From Treponemataceae bacterium (GTDB taxonomy: Bacteria; Spirochaetota; Spirochaetia; Treponematales; Treponemataceae): a stretch of 55,905 nucleotides of DNA. Location: the NCBI GenBank assembly GCA_024402495.1, contig JAKSTR010000008.1:1-55905 (forward strand), read 5' to 3'. Positions 37,536-49,769 of this stretch are shown here, one piece after another. The translations under genes were made by a program, and so were the position numbers. Each line of letters opens with the position of its first letter. Positions within the stretch are counted from its first letter, which is position 1. The notes under the pieces were generated by a model, which saw only the letters and a program-made list of their open reading frames with translations, did no database searches and had not been told where the DNA came from.

Positions 37536-38477
37536 ATGGCAAACAAAATCACAATTATCGGAGCCGGTCAGGTTGGTTCTTCAATTGCTTACGCCCTTTG
37601 TCTTAAAGGCGTAGCTACAGAGATTGTTCTTATCGACATCGATGCTAAGCGCGCAATGGGTGAAGCAATGGATATTCGTCAGGGAACACCTTATATGAGC
37701 CCTGTTAATATTCACGAAGGTACTTATGAAGACGCTAAAGGTTCAAATATTGTTATCGTAACATCTGGCGCTGCACGCAAACCAGGTCAGACCCGTCTTG
37801 ATTTGGCGCAGACAAACGTAAATATTTTCAAGTCAATTATTCCACAGATTACACGTGTTGCACCTGATGCAATTTATGTTCTCGTTGCAAACCCTGTAGA
37901 TATTCTTACATACCAGCTTGCAAAAACTTCATCAATTCCTGTAAACCGCATCATCGGTACAGGTACTTTGCTTGATACCGCCCGTCTCCGCACAAAAATT
38001 GCAGACGAATACGGAATCGGTCAGGCTAACTTGCACGCTTACGTATTTGGTGAACACGGCGATTCTTCTTTCGTACCGTGGTCAATGGTTAACATCGCTT
38101 CTGTACCTGTTGACGACTACAACCACGCTGTTGGCAACAAGCACGAACCGCTGGACAAAGCTGCTGTTGAAGAATATGTACGCAAATCTGGTGCAATCAT
38201 TATCGATGCTAAACGCTGTACAAACTATGCAATCGGTGTTACAACAGCCCGCCTGTGTGAAATGATTAAAAACAACAACCCTTCAGTTACAATCGTTTCT
38301 ACAATGCTGAACGGCGAATACGGAATCAGCGACGTTTGTCTTTCAATTCCTACTGTTGTTGGTGGTAACGGTGTTGAAGGTCGTCTTGCTCCTCCATTGG
38401 CAGATTCTGAAGTTGAACAGCTTAGAAAGAGTGCAGAAACACTTAAAGGCATCATCAGCCAGCTTGATTTCAACTAA
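37536..38477 (+). CDS. mdh: Malate/lactate dehydrogenase family enzyme, malate-type specificity residue
   Basis: 313 aa. NAD site GAGQVGSSIAYA (9-20), Asp34 for the ribose of NAD. Catalytic His174 in FGEHGDSSF and Asp147/Arg150 in LLDTARLR. Overall it resembles L-lactate dehydrogenase, but the specificity loop reads AARKPGQTRLDL (79-90) with Arg81 where lactate dehydrogenases carry Gln and malate dehydrogenases Arg. The next gene is fumarase and then a fumarate-reductase cluster, so malate dehydrogenase fits both residue and context. The family does contain exceptions, so lactate use is not excluded. Start ATG 37536 behind GTAAGGATGG. Confidence 0.8.
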   Translation: MANKITIIGAGQVGSSIAYALCLKGVATEIVLIDIDAKRAMGEAMDIRQGTPYMSPVNIHEGTYEDAKGSNIVIVTSGAARKPGQTRLDLAQTNVNIFKSIIPQITRVAPDAIYVLVANPVDILTYQLAKTSSIPVNRIIGTGTLLDTARLRTKIADEYGIGQANLHAYVFGEHGDSSFVPWSMVNIASVPVDDYNHAVGNKHEPLDKAAVEEYVRKSGAIIIDAKRCTNYAIGVTTARLCEMIKNNNPSVTIVSTMLNGEYGISDVCLSIPTVVGGNGVEGRLAPPLADSEVEQLRKSAETLKGIISQLDFN

Positions 38478-38567: not shown

Positions 38568-39986
38568 ATGGATTACAGAATTGAGCACGATTCTATGGGC
38601 GAAATGCAGGTTCCTGCTGATAAATATTGGGCAGCCCAGACAGAACGCAGCCACGAAAACTTTAAAATCGGTGTTGGAATTGAAACAATGCCGAGAGAAA
38701 TTACCCACGCCTTCGGCATTTTGAAAAAAGCTGCCGCAATGGCAAACAACGCATTAAAACCTGAAAAAATGACAGCTGAAAAACTTGCAGCAATCAGCGC
38801 TGCCTGTGATGAAGTTATTTCAGGCGATTTGAACGAACATTTTCCTCTGGTTGTTTGGCAGACAGGTAGCGGTACACAGTCTAACATGAATGCAAACGAA
38901 GTTATTGCAAACCGCGGTAACGAAATTGCTTCCGGTATGGCAAAAGGTGATTCGCTGAAAGTCGGCGCACAGGTAAAAAAACTTTTGCACCCGAACGACG
39001 ACATCAATATGAGCCAGTCTTCAAACGATACTTTCCCTACAGCTATGCATATTGCAGCTGTTTTAATCATTGAAGATAAAGTTATTCCTGCTATTGACCT
39101 TCTGGTTGCTACATTAAAGCGCCTTGAAGCTGAAAATGAAGGCATCGTAAAAAGCGGTCGTACTCACTTGCAGGATGCAACACCTATTAAATTCAGTCAG
39201 GAAATTTCAGGCTGGCGCAGTTCTCTGGAAAAAGACAAAATGCTTTTGCAGGCTGCATTGCCGGCTTTGTACGAACTTGCACTTGGCGGTACAGCTGTTG
39301 GTACAGGTTTGAATACGCCAAAAGGTTTCGATGTAAAAGTTGCAGAATCTGTTGCAAAACTTACCGGCAAACCTTTCGTTACTGCTTCAAACAAATTCCA
39401 TGCACTTACCAGCAAAGACGAACTTGTTTTTGCTCACGGCGCATTAAAGGCTCTTGCCTGCGACATGATGAAAATTGCCAACGACGTTCGCTGGCTTTCT
39501 TCTGGTCCTCGCGATGGTCTTGGAGAAATCCATATTCCGGAAAACGAACCTGGTTCAAGCATTATGCCGGGTAAAGTTAACCCGACCCAGTGCGAACAGG
39601 TAACAATGGTTGCCGTACAGGTAATGGGTAACGACGTTGCTGTAGGTATGGCTGCAAGTCAGGGCAACTTTGAACTTAACGTGTTCATGCCTGTTTGTAT
39701 CTACAACTTCCTGCAGAGTGCACGTCTTATTGCAGAATCAATTGTTTCTTTCAACGACAATTGTGCTGTTGGCATTACAGCTAACAAAGAAAAAATGCAC
39801 CACAACCTGCACAATTCTTTGATGCTTGTTACAGCCCTTAACCCTTACATCGGTTACGAAAACGCAGCAAAAACTGCAAAAAAAGCTTACAAAGAAAACA
39901 TTTCGCTTAAAGAAGCCTGTGTTGCACTTGGTTTCTTAACAGCTGAAAAGTTTGACGAAGTTTTCCACCCGGAACAGATGGTGTAA
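38568..39986 (+). CDS. fumC: Fumarate hydratase, class II
   Basis: 472 aa, iron-free homotetramer type. Interconverts malate and fumarate. Marks: [27 protein letters not shown] with the catalytic region, [14 protein letters not shown], and the superfamily signature [16 protein letters not shown] with the catalytic Ser on the mobile loop. ATG 38568 follows CTGGAGAAACC. Same direction as mdh and 91 bp after it; sits between mdh and the fumarate-reductase set. Confidence 0.96.
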
Positions 39987-40249: not shown

Positions 40250-41044
40250 ATGAATTACAGTTATTTCCCCGGCTGTACTTTAAAAAACAAGGCAAAAGAC
40301 CTTGACATGTACGCACGTTCTGCAGCTGCTGCGCTTGGTTTTGAATTAAACGAAATTGAAGAATGGCAGTGCTGTGGCGGTGTGTACCCAATGGGAACAA
40401 ACGAGATTGCTTCAAAGCTTCCTTCTGTAAGAGCTTTGGCTGCTGCCCGTGATGCCGGAACCCCATTGGTAACTCTTTGTTCTGCCTGTTACAACGTTAT
40501 TAAACAGGTTAATAACGATATGCAGAACGACGAGATCATGATTCTGAAGGCAAATAAATATCTTGCTCAAGATGGTATTGAATATCACGGTGAAACAAAA
40601 GTTCTTCATTTCCTGGAAGTACTTCGTGATGAAATTGGCTGGGACAAAGTAAAAGCAGCCGTTAAAAACCCGTTGACCGGTAAAAAAATCGGTGCATACT
40701 ACGGTTGTCTGCTTCTTCGCCCGGGCAAAGTTATGGAATTTGATGATCCGGAAAATCCTCAGATTCTTGAAGATTTTATTAAAGCCCTTGGTGCAACACC
40801 TGTTATTTATGGTCAGCGCAACGAATGCTGTGGTGCATATGCTGCATTTGAAGATGAATCTATTCCTGTAAAACGGGCTTCTTCAATTCTGGCAAACGCA
40901 CAGGATATGGGCGCAGACTTTTTGGTAACAAGCTGCCCGTTGTGCCGCTATAACTTGATTAAAAATAAAGGCAATTCACCTTTAGATGTTGTTTATTTTA
41001 CAGAACTTCTTGCAGAAGCTTTAGGCGTAAAGGAGGGAAAGTAA
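40250..41044 (+). CDS. hdrB: HdrB-like subunit with two CCG domains
   Basis: 264 aa. In methanogens HdrB holds the two noncubane [4Fe-4S] clusters that reduce the CoM-CoB heterodisulfide. Both CCG motifs are complete: Cys9, Cys42-Cys43, Cys78 and Cys81 (LCSACYN) in the first; YYGCLLL, NECCGAY and SCPLCRYN in the second. So the disulfide-type site appears intact. The organism should have no coenzyme M/B, so its natural substrate is open. First gene of a nine-gene same-direction run to 49201. Confidence 0.9.
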   Translation: MNYSYFPGCTLKNKAKDLDMYARSAAAALGFELNEIEEWQCCGGVYPMGTNEIASKLPSVRALAAARDAGTPLVTLCSACYNVIKQVNNDMQNDEIMILKANKYLAQDGIEYHGETKVLHFLEVLRDEIGWDKVKAAVKNPLTGKKIGAYYGCLLLRPGKVMEFDDPENPQILEDFIKALGATPVIYGQRNECCGAYAAFEDESIPVKRASSILANAQDMGADFLVTSCPLCRYNLIKNKGNSPLDVVYFTELLAEALGVKEGK

Positions 41045-41045
41045 A

Positions 41046-41441
41046 ATGTTAGATAGCGAAATTCAGCAATATAAAGAACTGATTCTTGAAACCAGCGGTG
41101 TAAATCCTAAAAAATGCATGGTTTGCGGTAAATGTTCAGGCACTTGCCCTAACTATGATGCAATGGAATACCATCCACATCAGTTTGTTCAGATGGTAGA
41201 AAACGGTGAAATTGAACCTTTGCTTAACAGCAAATCAATTTATACTTGTTTGTCTTGCTTTGCATGTCTGGAACGCTGTCCTCGTCAGGTTGAACCGGCA
41301 AAACTGATTGATGCCGTTCGTACTGTTGTTGAACGTGAACGTGGTCCTCTTCATCTGGATCCTTCACAGGTTCCAGCCAAGCTTGATGATGACACACCGC
41401 AGCAGCTTTTAATGAGTGCTTTCAGAAAGTACCGCAAATAG
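41046..41441 (+). CDS. hdrC: HdrC-like ferredoxin subunit
   Basis: 131 aa with two [4Fe-4S] sites: CMVCGKCSGTCP and CLSCFACLERCP. Carries electrons between HdrA and HdrB. Begins 1 nt after the hdrB stop, behind GGAGGG. Confidence 0.9.
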   Translation: MLDSEIQQYKELILETSGVNPKKCMVCGKCSGTCPNYDAMEYHPHQFVQMVENGEIEPLLNSKSIYTCLSCFACLERCPRQVEPAKLIDAVRTVVERERGPLHLDPSQVPAKLDDDTPQQLLMSAFRKYRK

Positions 41442-41450
41442 GAGTGACAG

Positions 41451-43463
41451 ATGGAAAGAATTGGTGTTTTTGTATGTCACTGTGGTACTAACATTGCAGG
41501 GACAGTAGACGTTGCTAAAGTTGCCGAAGAACTTGGCAAAGTTGACGGTGTTGTTTATTCAACACACTATACATATATGTGTTCTTCTGCCGGTCAGAAA
41601 ATGATTGAAGACCGCATTAAAGAAGACAAACTGACAGGCGTTGTTTTGTGTTCATGTTCTCCGCGTATGCACGAAAAGACATTCCGTTCTTGTGCAGAAC
41701 GTGCCGGCTTGAACCCTTACAAGGTTGAAGTTGCAAATATCCGCGAACAGACTTCTTGGGTTGGCAAGGATATTGCAGAGAATACAGAAAAAGCAATTGC
41801 TCTTGGTAAAGCAGCGGTTGCAAAATCTATTCTTGATACAAAACTTGTAGAAGGTGAAACACCTGTTACAAAACGCGCATTGGTAATTGGCGGCGGTATT
41901 GCCGGTATTACGGCAGCCCTTGATATTGCTGATGCAGGTTTCCCGGTTGACATCGTAGAAAAGAAAGTTTCTGTCGGTGGTAAAATGGCTATGCTTGATA
42001 AAACATTCCCGACTTTGGACTGTGCATCTTGTATCGTTACACCAAAAATGACAGAAGTTAGCCAGAACGCTAACATCCGCATCCTTTCTTACAGCGAAGT
42101 TTGCGGCGTTAAAGGCTATATTGGTAACTTTACGGTTGATATTAAGCGTCATCCTCGTTTTGTTGACGAAACAAAATGTACAGGTTGTGGTGCTTGTATC
42201 GAAGCTTGTCCTAACAAGAAAGTTCCAAACGATTTCAACTTGAATCTTGATACTAAAAAAGCAATTTACATTCCTTTTGCACAGGCTGTTCCAAAAGTTG
42301 CTACAATTGATGCAAATTACTGTTTGCACCAGAAAGCAGCAAAGAACGGCAAAGACAACGTTTGTGGTTTTTGTCAGAAAGCTTGTGGCGTAGGTGCAAT
42401 TAACTTTAACCAGCAGGAAGAAACAATTACCGAAAAATACGGTGCAATTATTGTTGCTACTGGTTACAATCCGATTGAACTTACAAAATTCGATGAATAT
42501 GCTTACAGCCAGAGCCCGGACGTTGTTTCTTCACTTGAATTTGAACGTTTGTGCAACGCTTCTGGTCCTACAAACGGTCACCTTAAACGCCCTTCTGACG
42601 GAAAGGAACCAAAAAACATTGTATTTGTACAGTGCGTAGGTTCACGCTGTTCGGCAGATTCTTCAAAAGGTCACGAATATTGTTCAAAAGTTTGCTGTAT
42701 GTATACGGCAAAACACGCAATCCTTACCCGCGACCACTACCCGGATACAAACTGTACCGTTTTCTACATTGACGTTCGTACGCCTGGCAAGCAGTTTGAT
42801 GAATTCTACCGCCGTGCAGTTGAACAGTATGGCGTTCACTACATCAAGGGTCAGGTTGGTAAAGTAACACCATTAAGCGATGGTACTTTGGATGTTCAGG
42901 GTTCAGATTTGATTTTGAACAAACAGGTACATATTAAAGCTGATATGGTTGTTCTTGCAGCCTCTATCGAAGCTGACAAATCTGCACGCCCGCTGGCAAC
43001 AATGCTTACAACTTCAATGGATAACAATGACTTCTTCCTTGAAGCTCACGCAAAACTTCGCCCGGTTGAATCTCCAACTGCAGGTATTTTCCTTGCCGGC
43101 TGCTGCCAGGGTCCAAAAGATATTCCGGAAACTGTAGCCCAGTCTTCTGGTGCAGCTGCAAAAGCAATTTGTCTTTTGGTTAAAGATAAACTTAAAAACA
43201 ACCCTTGTACTGCTACACCAAACGAAAACGCATGTAACGGTTGTGGTCAGTGTGCTAATGTATGTCCTTATGGCGCAATTAGTTACGTTGATAAAGACTT
43301 CCGCGGTCCAAACCGCACGACAATTACAAGACACGTTTCACAGGTTAACAGCGCAATGTGTCAGGGTTGTGGTGCCTGTACCGTTGCCTGTCCAAGCGGC
43401 GCAATGGATTTGCAGGGCTTTAGTAACAAACAGATTCTGGCGGAGGTAGATGCAGTACTATGA
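41451..43463 (+). CDS. hdrA: HdrA-like flavin and iron-sulfur subunit (bifurcation centre)
   Basis: 670 aa. HdrA bears FAD, the site of electron bifurcation in characterised complexes, and several [4Fe-4S] clusters. N-terminal RIGVFVCHCGTNI and CSCSPRMHEKTF; FAD motif VIGGGIAGITAALDIADAG (about 143-161) followed by DCASCIVTPKM; inserted ferredoxin CTGCGACIEACP (about 243-254) with VCGFCQKACG; C-terminal pair CNGCGQCANVCP and CQGCGACTVACP for electron exit to ferredoxin. Overlaps the next gene by 4 bp (ATGA). Confidence 0.92.
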   Translation: MERIGVFVCHCGTNIAGTVDVAKVAEELGKVDGVVYSTHYTYMCSSAGQKMIEDRIKEDKLTGVVLCSCSPRMHEKTFRSCAERAGLNPYKVEVANIREQTSWVGKDIAENTEKAIALGKAAVAKSILDTKLVEGETPVTKRALVIGGGIAGITAALDIADAGFPVDIVEKKVSVGGKMAMLDKTFPTLDCASCIVTPKMTEVSQNANIRILSYSEVCGVKGYIGNFTVDIKRHPRFVDETKCTGCGACIEACPNKKVPNDFNLNLDTKKAIYIPFAQAVPKVATIDANYCLHQKAAKNGKDNVCGFCQKACGVGAINFNQQEETITEKYGAIIVATGYNPIELTKFDEYAYSQSPDVVSSLEFERLCNASGPTNGHLKRPSDGKEPKNIVFVQCVGSRCSADSSKGHEYCSKVCCMYTAKHAILTRDHYPDTNCTVFYIDVRTPGKQFDEFYRRAVEQYGVHYIKGQVGKVTPLSDGTLDVQGSDLILNKQVHIKADMVVLAASIEADKSARPLATMLTTSMDNNDFFLEAHAKLRPVESPTAGIFLAGCCQGPKDIPETVAQSSGAAAKAICLLVKDKLKNNPCTATPNENACNGCGQCANVCPYGAISYVDKDFRGPNRTTITRHVSQVNSAMCQGCGACTVACPSGAMDLQGFSNKQILAEVDAVL

Positions 43464-43912
43464 GCGATGTAACAGAAAAGAAAGAATGGACACCAAAAAT
43501 TGTAGCATTCTGCTGTAACTGGTGTTCTTACGCAGGTGCTGACCTTGCCGGTAACAACCGTTTGGATTACCCTGCCAACGTAAAAATCATTCGTATTCCA
43601 TGCTCTTGCCGCTTGAACCCTATGTTCATTTTGCGCGCATTTCAGCGTGGTGCTGATGGTGTTATTTTGTGCGGCTGCCACCCTGGCGACTGCCACTATT
43701 CAACAGGTAACTATTTTGCACGTCGTCGTATGACACTGCTTTTTTCTATGCTTGATTACTTGGGTATTGAAAAAGGCCGCACACGCGTAGAATGGTGTTC
43801 TGCTGCCGAAGGCGTTCGTTTTGCAGGCATTATGAACGACTTTGTTGCACAGATTACAGAACTTGGTGAAAACAAAAAGTTGGAGGACGTAAGATGCAAG
43901 ACAACAAATTAA
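43460..43912 (+). CDS. flxD: MvhD/FlxD-like [2Fe-2S] adaptor subunit
   Basis: 150 aa. Links an electron-input module to HdrA. Family motifs AFCCNWCSYAGADLAG, IPCSCRLNP, LCGCHPGDCHY. No hydrogenase subunits (MvhA/MvhG) are nearby; the downstream NAD-binding flavoprotein marks the Flx type of input. Extends over the start of the next gene by 19 bp. Confidence 0.9.
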   Translation: MSDVTEKKEWTPKIVAFCCNWCSYAGADLAGNNRLDYPANVKIIRIPCSCRLNPMFILRAFQRGADGVILCGCHPGDCHYSTGNYFARRRMTLLFSMLDYLGIEKGRTRVEWCSAAEGVRFAGIMNDFVAQITELGENKKLEDVRCKTTN

Positions 43913-44877
43913 CTTCAACCCTTATTGAAAACGCAAAAGCAAAACTTGCTGACGGAACTGTTCAGAAAGTAGTGGGTTGGAGAAAAGGTCTTTTCGATTA
44001 CGACGTAACTCCTTCAGTTTTTGCTGATGCAGCAGACCTTGAAAAAAACTTTGTATATAACGAAAACTGTGGCGCAAACCTTTCAAAATATCTTGTAAAA
44101 ATTACAAGAGAAATTGAAGTTAAAAAAAGTACCACAAGAATGAACAATTCTATGGCAAAGCAGCGCGACCCTAACGCGGTTGATGCTCCTATTCCTTCAG
44201 AAAAAGTTCTTGTGTTCCTGAAACCTTGCGATACTTACAGTTTTACGGAACTTTTAAAAGAAAACCGCATTACCCGCGATGACGTTGTTGTGGTTGGTAT
44301 TCCATGCGACGGAATGAAAGACCCTGAAACAAACGAAATTGCAGAACGCTGTGCAGTTTGTAAATCTAAAAAGCACGTTACTTACGACGAACTGGTAGGC
44401 GATGACGGCGATTTGCTTGACAGCAAACGTTTTGACGAAGTTGAAAAACTTGAAAAAATGACAGCCGATGAACGCCACGAATTCTGGAAAAACGAATTCA
44501 GCCGCTGTATCCGCTGTAACGCTTGCCGCGACATTTGTCCTGCTTGTACCTGCGAAAAATGTGTATTTGACAACAACGCAATGTACACATCGCAGAAAGT
44601 TGCACAGGTTAGCTTTGAAGAAAGTTTGTACCATATTATCCGCGCATGGCACGTTGCCGGCCGCTGTACAGACTGCGGCGAATGTTCACGCGTTTGCCCG
44701 GAACACATTCCGCTTCACCTGCTTAACCGCAAGTTCATTAAAGATATCAACGAGATTTACGGACCGTACATTGCCGGTAGCGATATGGAAACAAAGCCGC
44801 CGATGTTGACCTTTACCGAAGGCGACGCCGAACCGAGCGTTGTTTACGATCGTTCTCAAGAAGGGGGTGACAAATAA
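43894..44877 (+). CDS. Iron-sulfur protein of an Flx-type module (two [4Fe-4S])
   Basis: 327 aa. N-terminal two-thirds resemble the FrhB/hydrogenase-beta type fold (FLKPCDTYSFTELLKENRI, VVGIPCDGM, CAVCKSKKHVTYDELVGD), the C-terminal part carries CIRCNACRDICPACTC and CTDCGECSRVCP. Matches the FlxB/FlxC-type Fe-S subunits that stand between FlxD and FlxA in flx-hdr operons; which of the two it corresponds to cannot be decided here. Stop overlaps the next start (TAATG). Confidence 0.75.
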   Translation: MQDNKLTSTLIENAKAKLADGTVQKVVGWRKGLFDYDVTPSVFADAADLEKNFVYNENCGANLSKYLVKITREIEVKKSTTRMNNSMAKQRDPNAVDAPIPSEKVLVFLKPCDTYSFTELLKENRITRDDVVVVGIPCDGMKDPETNEIAERCAVCKSKKHVTYDELVGDDGDLLDSKRFDEVEKLEKMTADERHEFWKNEFSRCIRCNACRDICPACTCEKCVFDNNAMYTSQKVAQVSFEESLYHIIRAWHVAGRCTDCGECSRVCPEHIPLHLLNRKFIKDINEIYGPYIAGSDMETKPPMLTFTEGDAEPSVVYDRSQEGGDK

Positions 44878-45908
44878 TGTATTGCCTTCCAGTTGAAAAA
44901 ATTGATTCATTTTTTGAAGCTGTTGCTTCAAAACAGAAATTATATTTGCCTGTAACCAACAGTTCAAAAAAAGCAAACTTTGAATTGTGGGAAAAAGGCA
45001 AAGTTTTGTCAGACGAACTGAAAACTGTTCGTTCTGCAAAAGACTTTTTCTTTCCAAAAGCTGAACGCCTTGTAAACTACAAGGTAAACGGTAAGGAAAT
45101 TGTAGTTGAAGACCCGCGCAAAGAAGTTGAAGACTTTGTAGTGTTTGGTGTTCGTGCCTGCGACGCAAAAAGTTTTGAAGTTATCGATGCTGTTTATTTG
45201 AACATGACACCGGTTGATACTTACTACAAAAACCGCCGCGAACACGGAACTGTAATTACTCTTGCCTGTAACGAACCGGCTCAGACCTGTTTCTGTTCAA
45301 CTTACAAACTTGATGCTGCTAACCCGGCTGGCGACGTAAGCTGCTGGAAAGCCGACGGCAAGTTTTATTTTGAAGCCAATACTGAAAAAGGCAAGGCTTT
45401 GATTGAAGCTGTAAAAGGCGTTTTGGCTGACGGCGATGCAAAAGCTGTTGAAGAATGCAAAAAACAAATCACGGAAAAGGTTGAAAAACTGCCTTTCGCA
45501 CATCTTGATTTGTCTAAGCTTGAAAAGCACGAAATGCTTAAAATGTTCAATTCCAAAATCTGGGATCAGATTTCGGAAGCCTGCCTTGGTTGCGGAACTT
45601 GTACTTATGTATGCCCGACCTGTATGTGTTTCGATGTACGCGACTTTAAGAAAAACGACGGAAGCGTTGAACAGGTTCGCTGCTGGGACAGCTGTATGTA
45701 CAACGACTTTACGCAGATGGCAGCAGAAAACCCGCGCCATACACAGAAAGAACGCAGCCGCCAGCGCTTCATGCATAAACTTATGTATTACCCGATGGCA
45801 CACGAAAACGTATTTGCATGTGTAGGCTGCGGCCGCTGTCTTGAAAGCTGCCCGGTTAACATGAACATTGTTAAAGTAATTAAAGCTTATAACGAGTCGG
45901 AAGAGTAG
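44877..45908 (+). CDS. Iron-sulfur protein of an Flx-type module, AsrA/HydB-like
   Basis: 343 aa. The N-terminal part (VFGVRACDAKSFEVIDAVYLN, ACNEPAQTCFCST) and the ferredoxin part CLGCGTCTYVCPTCMCFDV ... CVGCGRCLESCPVN match anaerobic sulfite reductase subunit A and the beta subunit of soluble hydrogenases, which accept electrons from a FlxA/AsrB-like flavoprotein. That partner is the next gene. RBS GGGGGTGA. Confidence 0.82.
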   Translation: MYCLPVEKIDSFFEAVASKQKLYLPVTNSSKKANFELWEKGKVLSDELKTVRSAKDFFFPKAERLVNYKVNGKEIVVEDPRKEVEDFVVFGVRACDAKSFEVIDAVYLNMTPVDTYYKNRREHGTVITLACNEPAQTCFCSTYKLDAANPAGDVSCWKADGKFYFEANTEKGKALIEAVKGVLADGDAKAVEECKKQITEKVEKLPFAHLDLSKLEKHEMLKMFNSKIWDQISEACLGCGTCTYVCPTCMCFDVRDFKKNDGSVEQVRCWDSCMYNDFTQMAAENPRHTQKERSRQRFMHKLMYYPMAHENVFACVGCGRCLESCPVNMNIVKVIKAYNESEE

Positions 45909-45920
45909 GCGGAGGAACCA

Positions 45921-46751
45921 ATGGAAAATAACGAATCATTTATTCCTTACGTAGGAAAAATTATTGATATTCGCCAGGAAACTCCGGATGTAAAAACTTT
46001 CCGTGTAGTTGGCAAAGACGGTAAAAAGCTCTTTGAACATATTCCTGGTCAGTGTGCAATGCTTATTGTACCTGGTGTTGGCGAAAGTATGATTTCTATC
46101 ACATCAAGCCCGACACTTAAAGATTATATGGAATTCTCTATCAAGAAATGCGGATGCGTTACAGAATGGCTTCACTCAGCTGAAGTTGGTCAGGAAATCG
46201 CTGTTCGCGGTCCAATTGGTAACGGATTCCCGGTAGAAGGCGCACTTAAAGGTAAAGACATTTTGGTAATTGCCGGTGGTATCGGTATTGCACCTGTTCA
46301 CTCTGTAGTTAACTACATGATGGACAAACGCGACAATTACGGAAAAATTCAGGTTATTTACGGTGCACGTTCTAAGGCTGACCTTGTTCGTCTTGACGAA
46401 ATGCAGAATGTATGGAAAAAACAGCCTAACTGTTCAATTGACATTACAATTGACCGTGCAGAAGAAGGCTGGGACGGTCACGTTGGATTCGTTCCTCCGT
46501 ACATCACGGAACTTAAACCTGATGCAGGTATGACTGTTATCATGTGTGGTCCGCCAATTCTTATCCATATGTCGCTGAAAATTTTGAAAGACCTTGGTTT
46601 CAAGGACAATCAGATTTTTACAACAATGGAAATGCGCATGAAATGCGGTATTGGTAAATGCGGAAGATGTAATATCGGTGACAAATTCGTTTGTAAAGAC
46701 GGTCCGGTATTCAGCTTTGACCAGTTGGGTGAACTTCCACCAGAGTATTAG
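45921..46751 (+). CDS. flxA: FAD/NAD(P)-binding oxidoreductase subunit, AsrB/FlxA-like
   Basis: 276 aa. FAD domain with IPGQCAMLIVPG and GESMISITSSP, NAD(P) domain with VIAGGIGIAPVHSVV (about 113-127) and VIMCGPPILI, and a C-terminal [2Fe-2S] motif MKCGIGKCGRCNIGDKFVC. Should take electrons from NADH or NADPH and feed the two Fe-S proteins and FlxD/HdrA. GGCGGAGGAACC before ATG 45921. Completes an HdrABC-FlxABCD set. Confidence 0.88.
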   Translation: MENNESFIPYVGKIIDIRQETPDVKTFRVVGKDGKKLFEHIPGQCAMLIVPGVGESMISITSSPTLKDYMEFSIKKCGCVTEWLHSAEVGQEIAVRGPIGNGFPVEGALKGKDILVIAGGIGIAPVHSVVNYMMDKRDNYGKIQVIYGARSKADLVRLDEMQNVWKKQPNCSIDITIDRAEEGWDGHVGFVPPYITELKPDAGMTVIMCGPPILIHMSLKILKDLGFKDNQIFTTMEMRMKCGIGKCGRCNIGDKFVCKDGPVFSFDQLGELPPEY

Positions 46752-46859: not shown

Positions 46860-47540
46860 ATGGCAGATAAAGAAATGGCCACCATTTATATTTTTGGCAA
46901 AAAATACGAAGTTCCGGCAGAACTTACAATTATGAACGCTATGGAATATGCCGGTTACCAGCTTAAACGTGGTTGCGGCTGCCGCAACGGTTTCTGCGGT
47001 GCTTGTGCAACAATTTACCGCATTAAAGGTACAAACCAGCTTCAGACTTGCTTGGCATGTTCTAAAAAAGTTGAAAATGACATGTACATTGCAACTTTGC
47101 CTTTCTTCCCATTGGTAAAACAGGTTTACGACATCAACAGCATGAAACCGGAACAGGCTGTCATGATGCAGCTTTACCCGGAAATTTATTCTTGTGTTGG
47201 CTGTAACGCCTGTACACGTGCCTGTCCGCAGAGCCTGAACACAATGCAGTACATCGCTTACGCACAGCGCGGCGATTTTGCAAAATGTGCAGACCTTTCG
47301 TTTGACTGCGTAATGTGCGGATGCTGTTCTTCACGCTGTCCTGCCGGCATCAGCCATCCGCAGGTTGCAGAACTTGCACGCCGCCTGAATGGTAAATACA
47401 TTCAGCCGCAGACCCAGCATTTGATTGACCGTGTTGAAGAAATTGATTCTGGCAAACTTGAAGAAATGATTCAGAACATCATGAACAAGCCGTTGGCAGA
47501 AATCAAAGAATTGTACAACAACCGCGACATCGAAAAATAA
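46860..47540 (+). CDS. Iron-sulfur subunit of a fumarate-reductase-like enzyme, atypical cluster set
   Basis: 226 aa. N-terminal plant-type [2Fe-2S] domain with CGCRNGFCGAC (Cys41, 46, 49) and CLAC (Cys64/67); then two full [4Fe-4S] motifs, CVGCNACTRACP (112, 115, 118, 122) and CVMCGCCSSRCP (150, 153, 156, 160). FrdB/SdhB proteins instead carry [2Fe-2S], [4Fe-4S] and [3Fe-4S] with a CxxxxxCxxxCP second part. The C-terminal half here looks more like HdrC. No CCG domain as in thiol:fumarate reductase TfrB. Lies 108 bp after flxA (hairpins in the gap, no T-run) and 14 bp before the flavoprotein. Confidence 0.8.
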   Translation: MADKEMATIYIFGKKYEVPAELTIMNAMEYAGYQLKRGCGCRNGFCGACATIYRIKGTNQLQTCLACSKKVENDMYIATLPFFPLVKQVYDINSMKPEQAVMMQLYPEIYSCVGCNACTRACPQSLNTMQYIAYAQRGDFAKCADLSFDCVMCGCCSSRCPAGISHPQVAELARRLNGKYIQPQTQHLIDRVEEIDSGKLEEMIQNIMNKPLAEIKELYNNRDIEK

Positions 47541-47554
47541 TAAGGAGACGAACA

Positions 47555-49201
47555 ATGTACGGAAATTACCTTGATGATGCTGCAAAAATTGTTGCAGAAA
47601 AACGTGAAGCAAACCTTAAATTTGAACATGCTCGTCTTACAGCAGATGAAAAAGACGAAATCCTGAAAGAATATCACCCGGACCGCATTTCAAGCCAGTT
47701 TGAAGAATTGAAAATCGGTCCAAACAAAGGTCAGAAAGCTCCAATCGAACTGGTTGCAATGCTTCAGGCAAAACCACGCATTGAACCTGAACACATCGAT
47801 TTGACCCACGTTGATTACGAAACAGACGTTTTGGTAATCGGCGGCGGCGGTGCCGGTTCTTCTGCTGCTATCATGGCAAGCGAAGCCGGTGCAAAAGTTC
47901 TTTTGGCTACAAAACTCCGCATCGGTGATGCAAACACAATGATGGCTGAAGGCGGTATTCAGGCTGCTGACAAACCAAACGACAGCCCGGCACAGCACTA
48001 TTTGGACTGTTTCGGCGGCGGTCACTTTGACGGAAAACCGGAATTGGTTTACACACTGGTAAACAAAGCACCAAAATGCATTAAATGGCTTAACGAACTT
48101 GGCGTTGAATTCGACAAAGAAGCAGACGGTACAATGGTTACTACCCACGGTGGCGGTACAAGCCGCAAAAGAATGCACGCTTGTAAAGACTACTCTGGTG
48201 CAGAAATTATGCGTACTTTGCGCGACGAAGTTTTGAACCGCCCGGATCAGATTACAGTTGTAGACTTCACTGCTGCAATTGAAATTATTAAAGATGACAA
48301 AGGCAACGCTTGCGGTGCTGTTCTTTTGAACGTAGAAACTGGAGAAGTTCGCATTGCAAAAGCTAAAGTTGTAATTATTGCAACCGGTGGTGCAGGCCGC
48401 ATGCACTATCAGGGTTTCCCAACTTCTAACCACTATGGTGCAACTGCTGACGGTTTGGTAATGGCTTACCGCGCCGGTGCAAAACTTTTGTATCAGGATT
48501 CTTTGCAGTATCACCCGACCGGTGCTGCTTACCCGACCCAGATTTTGGGAAAACTGGTAACAGAAAAAGTTCGTTCGCTTGGTGCAAAACTCATCAACAA
48601 AGACGGCGAAGTTTACATTCACCCTCTTGAAACACGCGACGTAAACGCTTCTGGTATCATTAAAGAAGTTCGCAACGGCCGCGGTGTTGAAAACGATGTT
48701 CAGCCTGCTGTTTGGTTGGATACTCCAATGATTGAAATGATTCACGGCGAAGGAACAATCCTTAAATCAATTCCTGCTATGTACAATATGTTCATCAAAT
48801 ACGGAATTGATATCCGCAAGGAACCGATTTTGGTTTACCCGACACTCCATTACCAGAACGGTGGTGTTGAAATTGACAAAACTTGTCATACAAATGTTGG
48901 AAACTTGCTTGTTGCCGGTGAAGCTTCTGGTGGTGTTCACGGAACAAACCGCCTGATGGGTAACAGTTTGCTTGACGTTGTAGTATTTGGACGCGAAGCT
49001 GGTATTGAAGCTGGTAAAATGTTTGCAAATATCACAATGGCTGATACTGCAAAAATGAACCTTGACCACGTAACAGCATTTGAAAAAGAAAGAGCAGCTG
49101 CTGGAATTACCGGCGATGTAGTTTCTCCAAAAGTTCTTCCTAGCTACACCCACGGAAACAAGGAATTTGAAAAATCTCCATTCCCTGGTGCAAGCAAATG
49201 A
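47555..49201 (+). CDS. Fumarate reductase/succinate dehydrogenase-type flavoprotein, non-covalent FAD
   Basis: 548 aa with an 85-residue N-terminal extension before the FAD motif VLVIGGGGAGSSAAIMASEAGA (about 91-112). The capping and active-site parts TTHGGGTSRKRMHA, DSLQYHPTGA, ASGGVHGTNRLMGNSLLDVVVFGREAG fit fumarate reductase/aspartate oxidase enzymes. In FrdA the segment SHT holds the His that binds FAD covalently; here it reads ANTMMAEGG, so the His is replaced by Asn and FAD must be non-covalent. No membrane-anchor gene follows, so the enzyme is soluble. Context after fumarase and HdrABC-FlxABCD favours fumarate reduction. RBS AAGGAGACG. Confidence 0.85.
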   Translation: MYGNYLDDAAKIVAEKREANLKFEHARLTADEKDEILKEYHPDRISSQFEELKIGPNKGQKAPIELVAMLQAKPRIEPEHIDLTHVDYETDVLVIGGGGAGSSAAIMASEAGAKVLLATKLRIGDANTMMAEGGIQAADKPNDSPAQHYLDCFGGGHFDGKPELVYTLVNKAPKCIKWLNELGVEFDKEADGTMVTTHGGGTSRKRMHACKDYSGAEIMRTLRDEVLNRPDQITVVDFTAAIEIIKDDKGNACGAVLLNVETGEVRIAKAKVVIIATGGAGRMHYQGFPTSNHYGATADGLVMAYRAGAKLLYQDSLQYHPTGAAYPTQILGKLVTEKVRSLGAKLINKDGEVYIHPLETRDVNASGIIKEVRNGRGVENDVQPAVWLDTPMIEMIHGEGTILKSIPAMYNMFIKYGIDIRKEPILVYPTLHYQNGGVEIDKTCHTNVGNLLVAGEASGGVHGTNRLMGNSLLDVVVFGREAGIEAGKMFANITMADTAKMNLDHVTAFEKERAAAGITGDVVSPKVLPSYTHGNKEFEKSPFPGASK

Positions 49202-49325: not shown

Positions 49326-49769
49326 ATGGATAAAAAAACAGAAATTTTACCAAAGTTTTGGGAAATAAAAAAAATTGAAGAAATGAATGATGCCGAATGG
49401 GAAGCTTTGTGCGACGGCTGCGGCTTGTGCTGTTACAGAAAAATTGTTGACGGATATTTGTGGAAGAAAAAAATACTTAACACGCGTATAGCTTGTAATC
49501 TGCTGGATACCGAGACCTGCCGCTGCAAAAATTATGCCAGCCGTTTCAGCCTGCAGAGTGAATGTGTAAAACTGGATAAAAAATCGATAAAACACTTTAA
49601 ATGGCTGCCGCAAAACTGTGCCTATCGTCTTTTGGCAGAAGGAAAAACTTTACCAGACTGGCATCCGTTAATAAGCGGTAATCCCGAAAGCGTAAAGCAA
49701 GCCGACATTTGCATAAAAGACCCAGTCAGCGAAAAAGATGCCGGCGACTGGTACGATTATGTGGTGTAG
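49326..49769 (+). CDS. YcgN-like cysteine-cluster protein (UPF0260)
   Basis: 147 aa, family length. Conserved FWEIKKIEEMNDAEWEALCDGCGLCCYRK, TETCRCKNYASRFSLQSECVKL, WLPQNCAYRLLAEGKTLPDWHPL. The cysteines probably bind metal; function unknown in the family. Starts just after the terminator of the preceding operon, 9 bp beyond a TGG ATT CAAC stretch without clear RBS. Confidence 0.9.
   Translation: MDKKTEILPKFWEIKKIEEMNDAEWEALCDGCGLCCYRKIVDGYLWKKKILNTRIACNLLDTETCRCKNYASRFSLQSECVKLDKKSIKHFKWLPQNCAYRLLAEGKTLPDWHPLISGNPESVKQADICIKDPVSEKDAGDWYDYVV

Follow-up and report, generated by a model that had tools for sequence, protein, structure and literature searches.

The question raised by this locus is how a fumarate reductase-like enzyme would be supplied with electrons when no membrane anchor gene lies beside it. 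The window, by which we mean the whole 55,905-nucleotide stretch of Treponema DNA that was analyzed, encodes on its forward strand an FrdB-like Fe-S subunit of 226 aa (46860-47540) and an FrdA-like flavoprotein of 548 aa (47555-49201), the positions at which a preliminary description of the sequence had placed the pair. Its remark that a membrane anchor is missing also agrees with the neighborhood of the two genes. We think it likely that a soluble, NADH-dependent multisubunit complex reduces fumarate at its FrdBA end, bifurcates electrons via HdrA, and in this way also reduces ferredoxin.

The FrdBA pair closes a run of Hdr and Flx genes

The genes leading up to the pair all lie on the forward strand and begin with a member of the LDH/MDH family (37536-38477), which is followed by FumC, a class II fumarate hydratase (38568-39986; 711 bits against a cut-off of 665). 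HdrB (40250-41044) has both of its Cys-rich (CCG) motifs intact and is also kin of the MfrE/SdhE subunit, and HdrC (41046-41441) carries two [4Fe-4S] motifs. HdrA (41451-43463), the FAD subunit and the putative site of bifurcation, matches a solved HdrA along its full length (647 bits), with its Fe-S domains intact. Next come an MvhD/FlxD-like subunit with an FlpD domain (43460-43912), a FlxC-like Fe-S subunit with a 4Fe-4S dicluster, assigned by position and synteny (43894-44877), a FlxB-like Fe-S subunit related to AsrA and sulfhydrogenase beta (44877-45908), and a FlxA-like FAD/NAD(P)H-binding subunit related to AsrB and sulfhydrogenase gamma (45921-46751). FrdB and FrdA stand last, with a gap of 108 bp between FlxA and FrdB. 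A scan of the operon for promoters and terminators returned promoter-like sites at a level not above chance. Directly 3′ of the pair, 49326-49769 encodes a putative metal-chelating protein of the CxxCxxCC type.

Cofactor sites and domains of FrdB and FrdA

The Fe-S subunit had been read as carrying a [2Fe-2S] center and two four-Cys motifs with no [3Fe-4S] pattern, and an alignment of 48 sequences bore this out. The probable [2Fe-2S] ligands (C41, C46, C49, and C67) are invariant, as are all eight Cys residues of the motifs CxxCxxCxxxC (112/115/118/122) and CxxCxxCxxxCP (150/153/156/160). When the last motif was aligned across E. coli FrdB (SCTFVGYCSEVCP), SdhB (CHSIMNCVSVCP), and the FrdB of the window (CVMCGCCSSRCP), the window protein was found to have Cys at the position that is Val or Ile in the two [3Fe-4S] proteins, and the four-Cys motif was kept in all 83 loci scanned. 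The suggestion that the second half of the subunit is HdrC-like also gained support, since in a predicted model the best alignments of this half were to HdrC (Z 11.8 over 89 residues, 2.5 Å). The predicted fold of the whole chain is still SdhB/FrdB-like; the chain ends at residue 226, with no CCG (HdrB-like) domain.

In the flavoprotein, Asn127 occupies the alignment position of the “RSHT” His that binds FAD covalently in E. coli FrdA and SdhA; NadB has Ser there. The Asn was found in 80 of 83 loci (the remaining three gave no motif match), and the replacement of the FAD-binding His noted earlier holds across related loci. The FAD is probably non-covalent. The residues that align with the active site of E. 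coli FrdA are retained (H320, T336/E337/R340, R361, H432, and R466). Among solved folds, a predicted FrdA model lay closest to flavocytochrome c3 fumarate reductases of Shewanella (Z 30.8) and to FrdA of E. coli (Z 29.9); because the model has a mean pLDDT of 73.9 and weak active-site loops, distances within it were left unused. Two features had been overlooked in the preliminary description: an N-terminal extension of ~85 residues, common to the kin of this protein, including those in Burkholderiales, and the absence of the C-terminal helical domain found in FrdA, SdhA, and NadB.

The best NCBIfam profile for FrdA was TfrA (336.6 bits), which, together with the presence of both Cys-rich motifs in HdrB, would suit a route in which HdrB reduces a disulfide, of a small molecule or a protein, and the thiols then feed FrdBA as the CoM and CoB thiols feed TfrAB. 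We regard such a route as quite improbable: the TfrA cut-off is 718 bits, FrdB has no counterpart of the HdrB-like, thiol-oxidizing domain of TfrB, and DsrC, the usual bacterial candidate partner, was not found in the 97%-complete host genome and was set aside as a thiol partner.

Conservation of gene order and co-occurrence

The genes that we prefer to assign to a bifurcating complex were followed through 80 loci from Treponema and Clostridia, with gene order counted in the 60 that had at least 7 kb of upstream DNA. The nine-gene order HdrB-HdrC-HdrA-MvhD-FlxC-FlxB-FlxA-FrdB-FrdA was present in 58 of these 60, and FumC lay directly upstream of the run in 54 of 56 loci. The other two loci, both from Treponema, have 7 to 9 kb of other genes between FlxA and FrdB (L034:1343-10001 and L036:2816-10001), the genes past the insert falling outside the fetched stretch; in these genomes FrdBA may have a transcript of its own. 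Given these inserts and the 108-bp gap in the window, FrdBA may be a unit separate from Flx-Hdr. Eight more Treponemataceae genome stretches showed the same nine-gene order, and the same Hdr-Flx-Frd run was found on a plasmid of Ilyobacter polytropus (L104:4876-17485), with aspartate ammonia-lyase, which also produces fumarate, in the place of FumC. A gene for an aspartate aminotransferase family protein lies downstream of the plasmid run, and in some Treponema a hydrophobic transporter-like protein follows FrdA (L016:3302-4519 and L017:3145-4500).

Among 40 relatives, HdrA and FrdB occurred together in 9 and were both missing from 30; the one genome with HdrA and no FrdB is fragmented and 80% complete, with an FrdA-type fragment at a contig edge. 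The 40 genomes are related, so these counts do not represent independent events. In a deep spirochaete relative (L108:9730-16998), FlxCBA-FrdBA is preceded by two MvhD-like genes and two genes of the HdrA type, one of them encoding 1003 aa, and no HdrB was detected near these genes.

The flavoprotein clade and a sister branch with a NuoF-like partner

In a flavoprotein tree of 28 sequences, TfrA and MfrA not among them, the FrdA of the operon and its kin formed a clade of their own apart from FrdA, SdhA, and NadB (support 100/100), and the grouping with aspartate oxidase that would have undone the earlier view was not seen. An L-aspartate oxidase (NadB) serving NAD synthesis would agree with the non-His FAD site and with a nadB profile score of 265 bits; that score lies under the cut-off of 453, no NadA was found in the host genome (97% complete), and the flavoprotein always has an Fe-S partner, and mostly a fumarase, adjacent to it. 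On the curated score, the tree position, and the absence of NadA, we set this identity aside as scarcely credible.

The sister branch of the clade comprises flavoproteins of Cupriavidus, Paraburkholderia, and Pseudoroseomonas. In both sister-branch loci checked, those of Cupriavidus (L105:7269-12340) and Pseudoroseomonas (L106:7195-10795), FrdB and FrdA adjoin a NuoF-like gene and no HdrA gene lies beside them; the Cupriavidus locus also has FumC. The cofactor ligands of this branch are the same as those of the Hdr-linked pairs, and thus the ligands do not specify Hdr. The proposal that the unusual ligands and the missing anchor mark a subfamily built to dock on a ferredoxin- or Hdr-type partner therefore survives in part: synteny, co-occurrence, and phylogeny give good support to a distinct subfamily tied to an Hdr-type partner, but its ligands are not Hdr-specific, and the complex more probably produces reduced ferredoxin than draws electrons from it.

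The sister branch also shows that FrdBA can apparently run with a simple NADH partner, and in Cupriavidus and Pseudoroseomonas the two together are a possible soluble NADH:fumarate reductase of aerobes. It speaks for a reading in which the Treponema operon encodes a soluble NADH:fumarate reductase that does not bifurcate, Flx-Hdr merely wiring electrons from NADH to FrdBA. We consider this unlikely, since a single NuoF-type subunit would suffice for that task, yet the full HdrABC set has been retained with the Fe-S domains of HdrA intact, and since the step from NADH to fumarate leaves energy enough for bifurcation.

Fumarate supply and quinone synthesis in the host genome

Judged from its nearest kin, the host Treponema would be a gut or rumen organism. 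A UbiA family prenyltransferase, as needed for quinone synthesis, was not found in its 97%-complete genome. A quinol:fumarate reductase of the FrdABCD or SdhABCD type was accordingly set aside, there being neither a [3Fe-4S] motif, nor a covalent-FAD His, nor UbiA. The FrdA of the operon is the single flavoprotein of the TfrA/FrdA/NadB type in the genome.

GTP-PEPCK is present in the host, and ATP-PEPCK was not found there. The LDH/MDH-family gene scored over the cut-off for L-lactate dehydrogenase, yet its product has Arg in an ARKPG loop, at the substrate-specificity site. Arg was found at this site in 48 of 48 orthologues (one with RKAG instead of RKPG), a residue that we take, from established work on the family, to mark malate dehydrogenases, and the gene thus probably encodes malate dehydrogenase. 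With GTP-PEPCK, the MDH-like gene, FumC, FrdBA, and no UbiA, a quinone-free path PEP → oxaloacetate → malate → fumarate → succinate can be drawn. An RnfC-like protein (L132, G000:C171:7036-8256), which reached 188 bits where the RnfC cut-off is 246, is a possible sink for reduced ferredoxin.

A proposed route of electrons to fumarate

From the sequences we can read gene content, order, and co-occurrence, the cluster and catalytic residues, the lack of quinone synthesis, and the genes for fumarate supply, and from these we infer that the subunits would form a bifurcating complex, that HdrB would pass electrons to FrdB directly, and that the reaction would run toward succinate. FlxA would oxidize NADH and pass the electrons by way of FlxB/FlxC and MvhD to HdrA, at whose FAD they would be split. 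One half would go to ferredoxin; the other would move along HdrC and HdrB into the FrdB clusters and reach the FAD of FrdA, where fumarate would be reduced to succinate. For the overall reaction, 2 NADH + fumarate + 2 Fd(ox) → 2 NAD+ + succinate + 2 Fd(red), we calculate approximately −49 kJ/mol, taking the standard potentials (−320, +33, and −420 mV) from PMC5861303. The presence of HdrABC genes alone is insufficient proof of bifurcation (PMC5861303), and we found no biochemistry in the literature on any member of the Hdr/Flx-linked fumarate reductases.

A more specific picture, which we offer tentatively and would lean slightly against as a whole, is that HdrB delivers electrons straight to FrdB, at its HdrC-like half, with neither a thiol nor a disulfide between them, so that a bifurcating HdrABC has fumarate for its high-potential acceptor, and that FrdBA is a swappable soluble fumarate-reducing module, served by HdrA/Flx in anaerobes and, in Burkholderiales, by an NADH subunit of the NuoF-like type.

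In quinone-free gut Treponema and many gut Clostridia, succinate has to be formed with no membrane fumarate reductase to rely on. Should the operon bifurcate, this step would also supply reduced ferredoxin for H2 formation or ion pumping, which would alter how energy and hydrogen are budgeted in rumen and gut fermentation. The proposal is directly testable in the cultured carriers Ilyobacter polytropus and Treponema sp. JC4.

Comparison with known systems

The TfrAB of methanogens combines two four-Cys clusters with a non-covalent FAD, so the ligands of FrdBA are not new in themselves. TfrA is also the best profile of FrdA, and the 2Fe-2S part of FrdB matches TfrB; the pair differs in that FrdA scores far below the TfrA cut-off and HdrB is a separate gene rather than a domain fused to FrdB. 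The 8-methylmenaquinol:fumarate reductase MfrABE shares with the operon a relative of HdrB in its MfrE/SdhE subunit, but the operon proteins fall below the curated cut-offs, and the host genome lacks quinone synthesis. Desulfovibrio FlxABCD-HdrABC has the same set of Flx and Hdr genes, whereas the Treponema set is joined in order to FrdBA in a genome with no DsrC. In Moorella MetFV-HdrABC-MvhD, HdrABC-MvhD feeds a reductase of a non-disulfide substrate, as we propose for the Treponema operon; in Moorella the acceptor is methylene-H4F reductase instead of FrdBA, and the Treponema operon has a full Flx set.

The closest counterpart is the “succinate operon” of the thermophile Pseudoclostridium thermosuccinogenes, in which a fumarase is joined by an Flx-Hdr complex of seven genes and by a fumarate reductase of two (PMC7282089, BMC Microbiol 2020). 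That paper cites a 2019 preprint (Koendjbiharie & van Kranenburg) as having proposed a fumarate reductase that takes part in electron bifurcation, and ferredoxin reduction was proposed for the operon (PMC7282089). The fumarase, the seven Flx-Hdr genes, and the two fumarate reductase genes come in the same order in both organisms, each with a GTP-PEPCK route. According to the same paper, a possible succinate transporter closes the P. thermosuccinogenes operon (PMC7282089), whereas the Treponema window has no transporter directly downstream and has an MDH-like gene upstream. By its match to the published gene order, the Treponema operon thus appears to join an arrangement already proposed for P. 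thermosuccinogenes, known though biochemically unproven, to which we add its spread in Treponema and Clostridia, its cofactor and domain anatomy, the genome-level absences, and the NuoF-linked sister branch.
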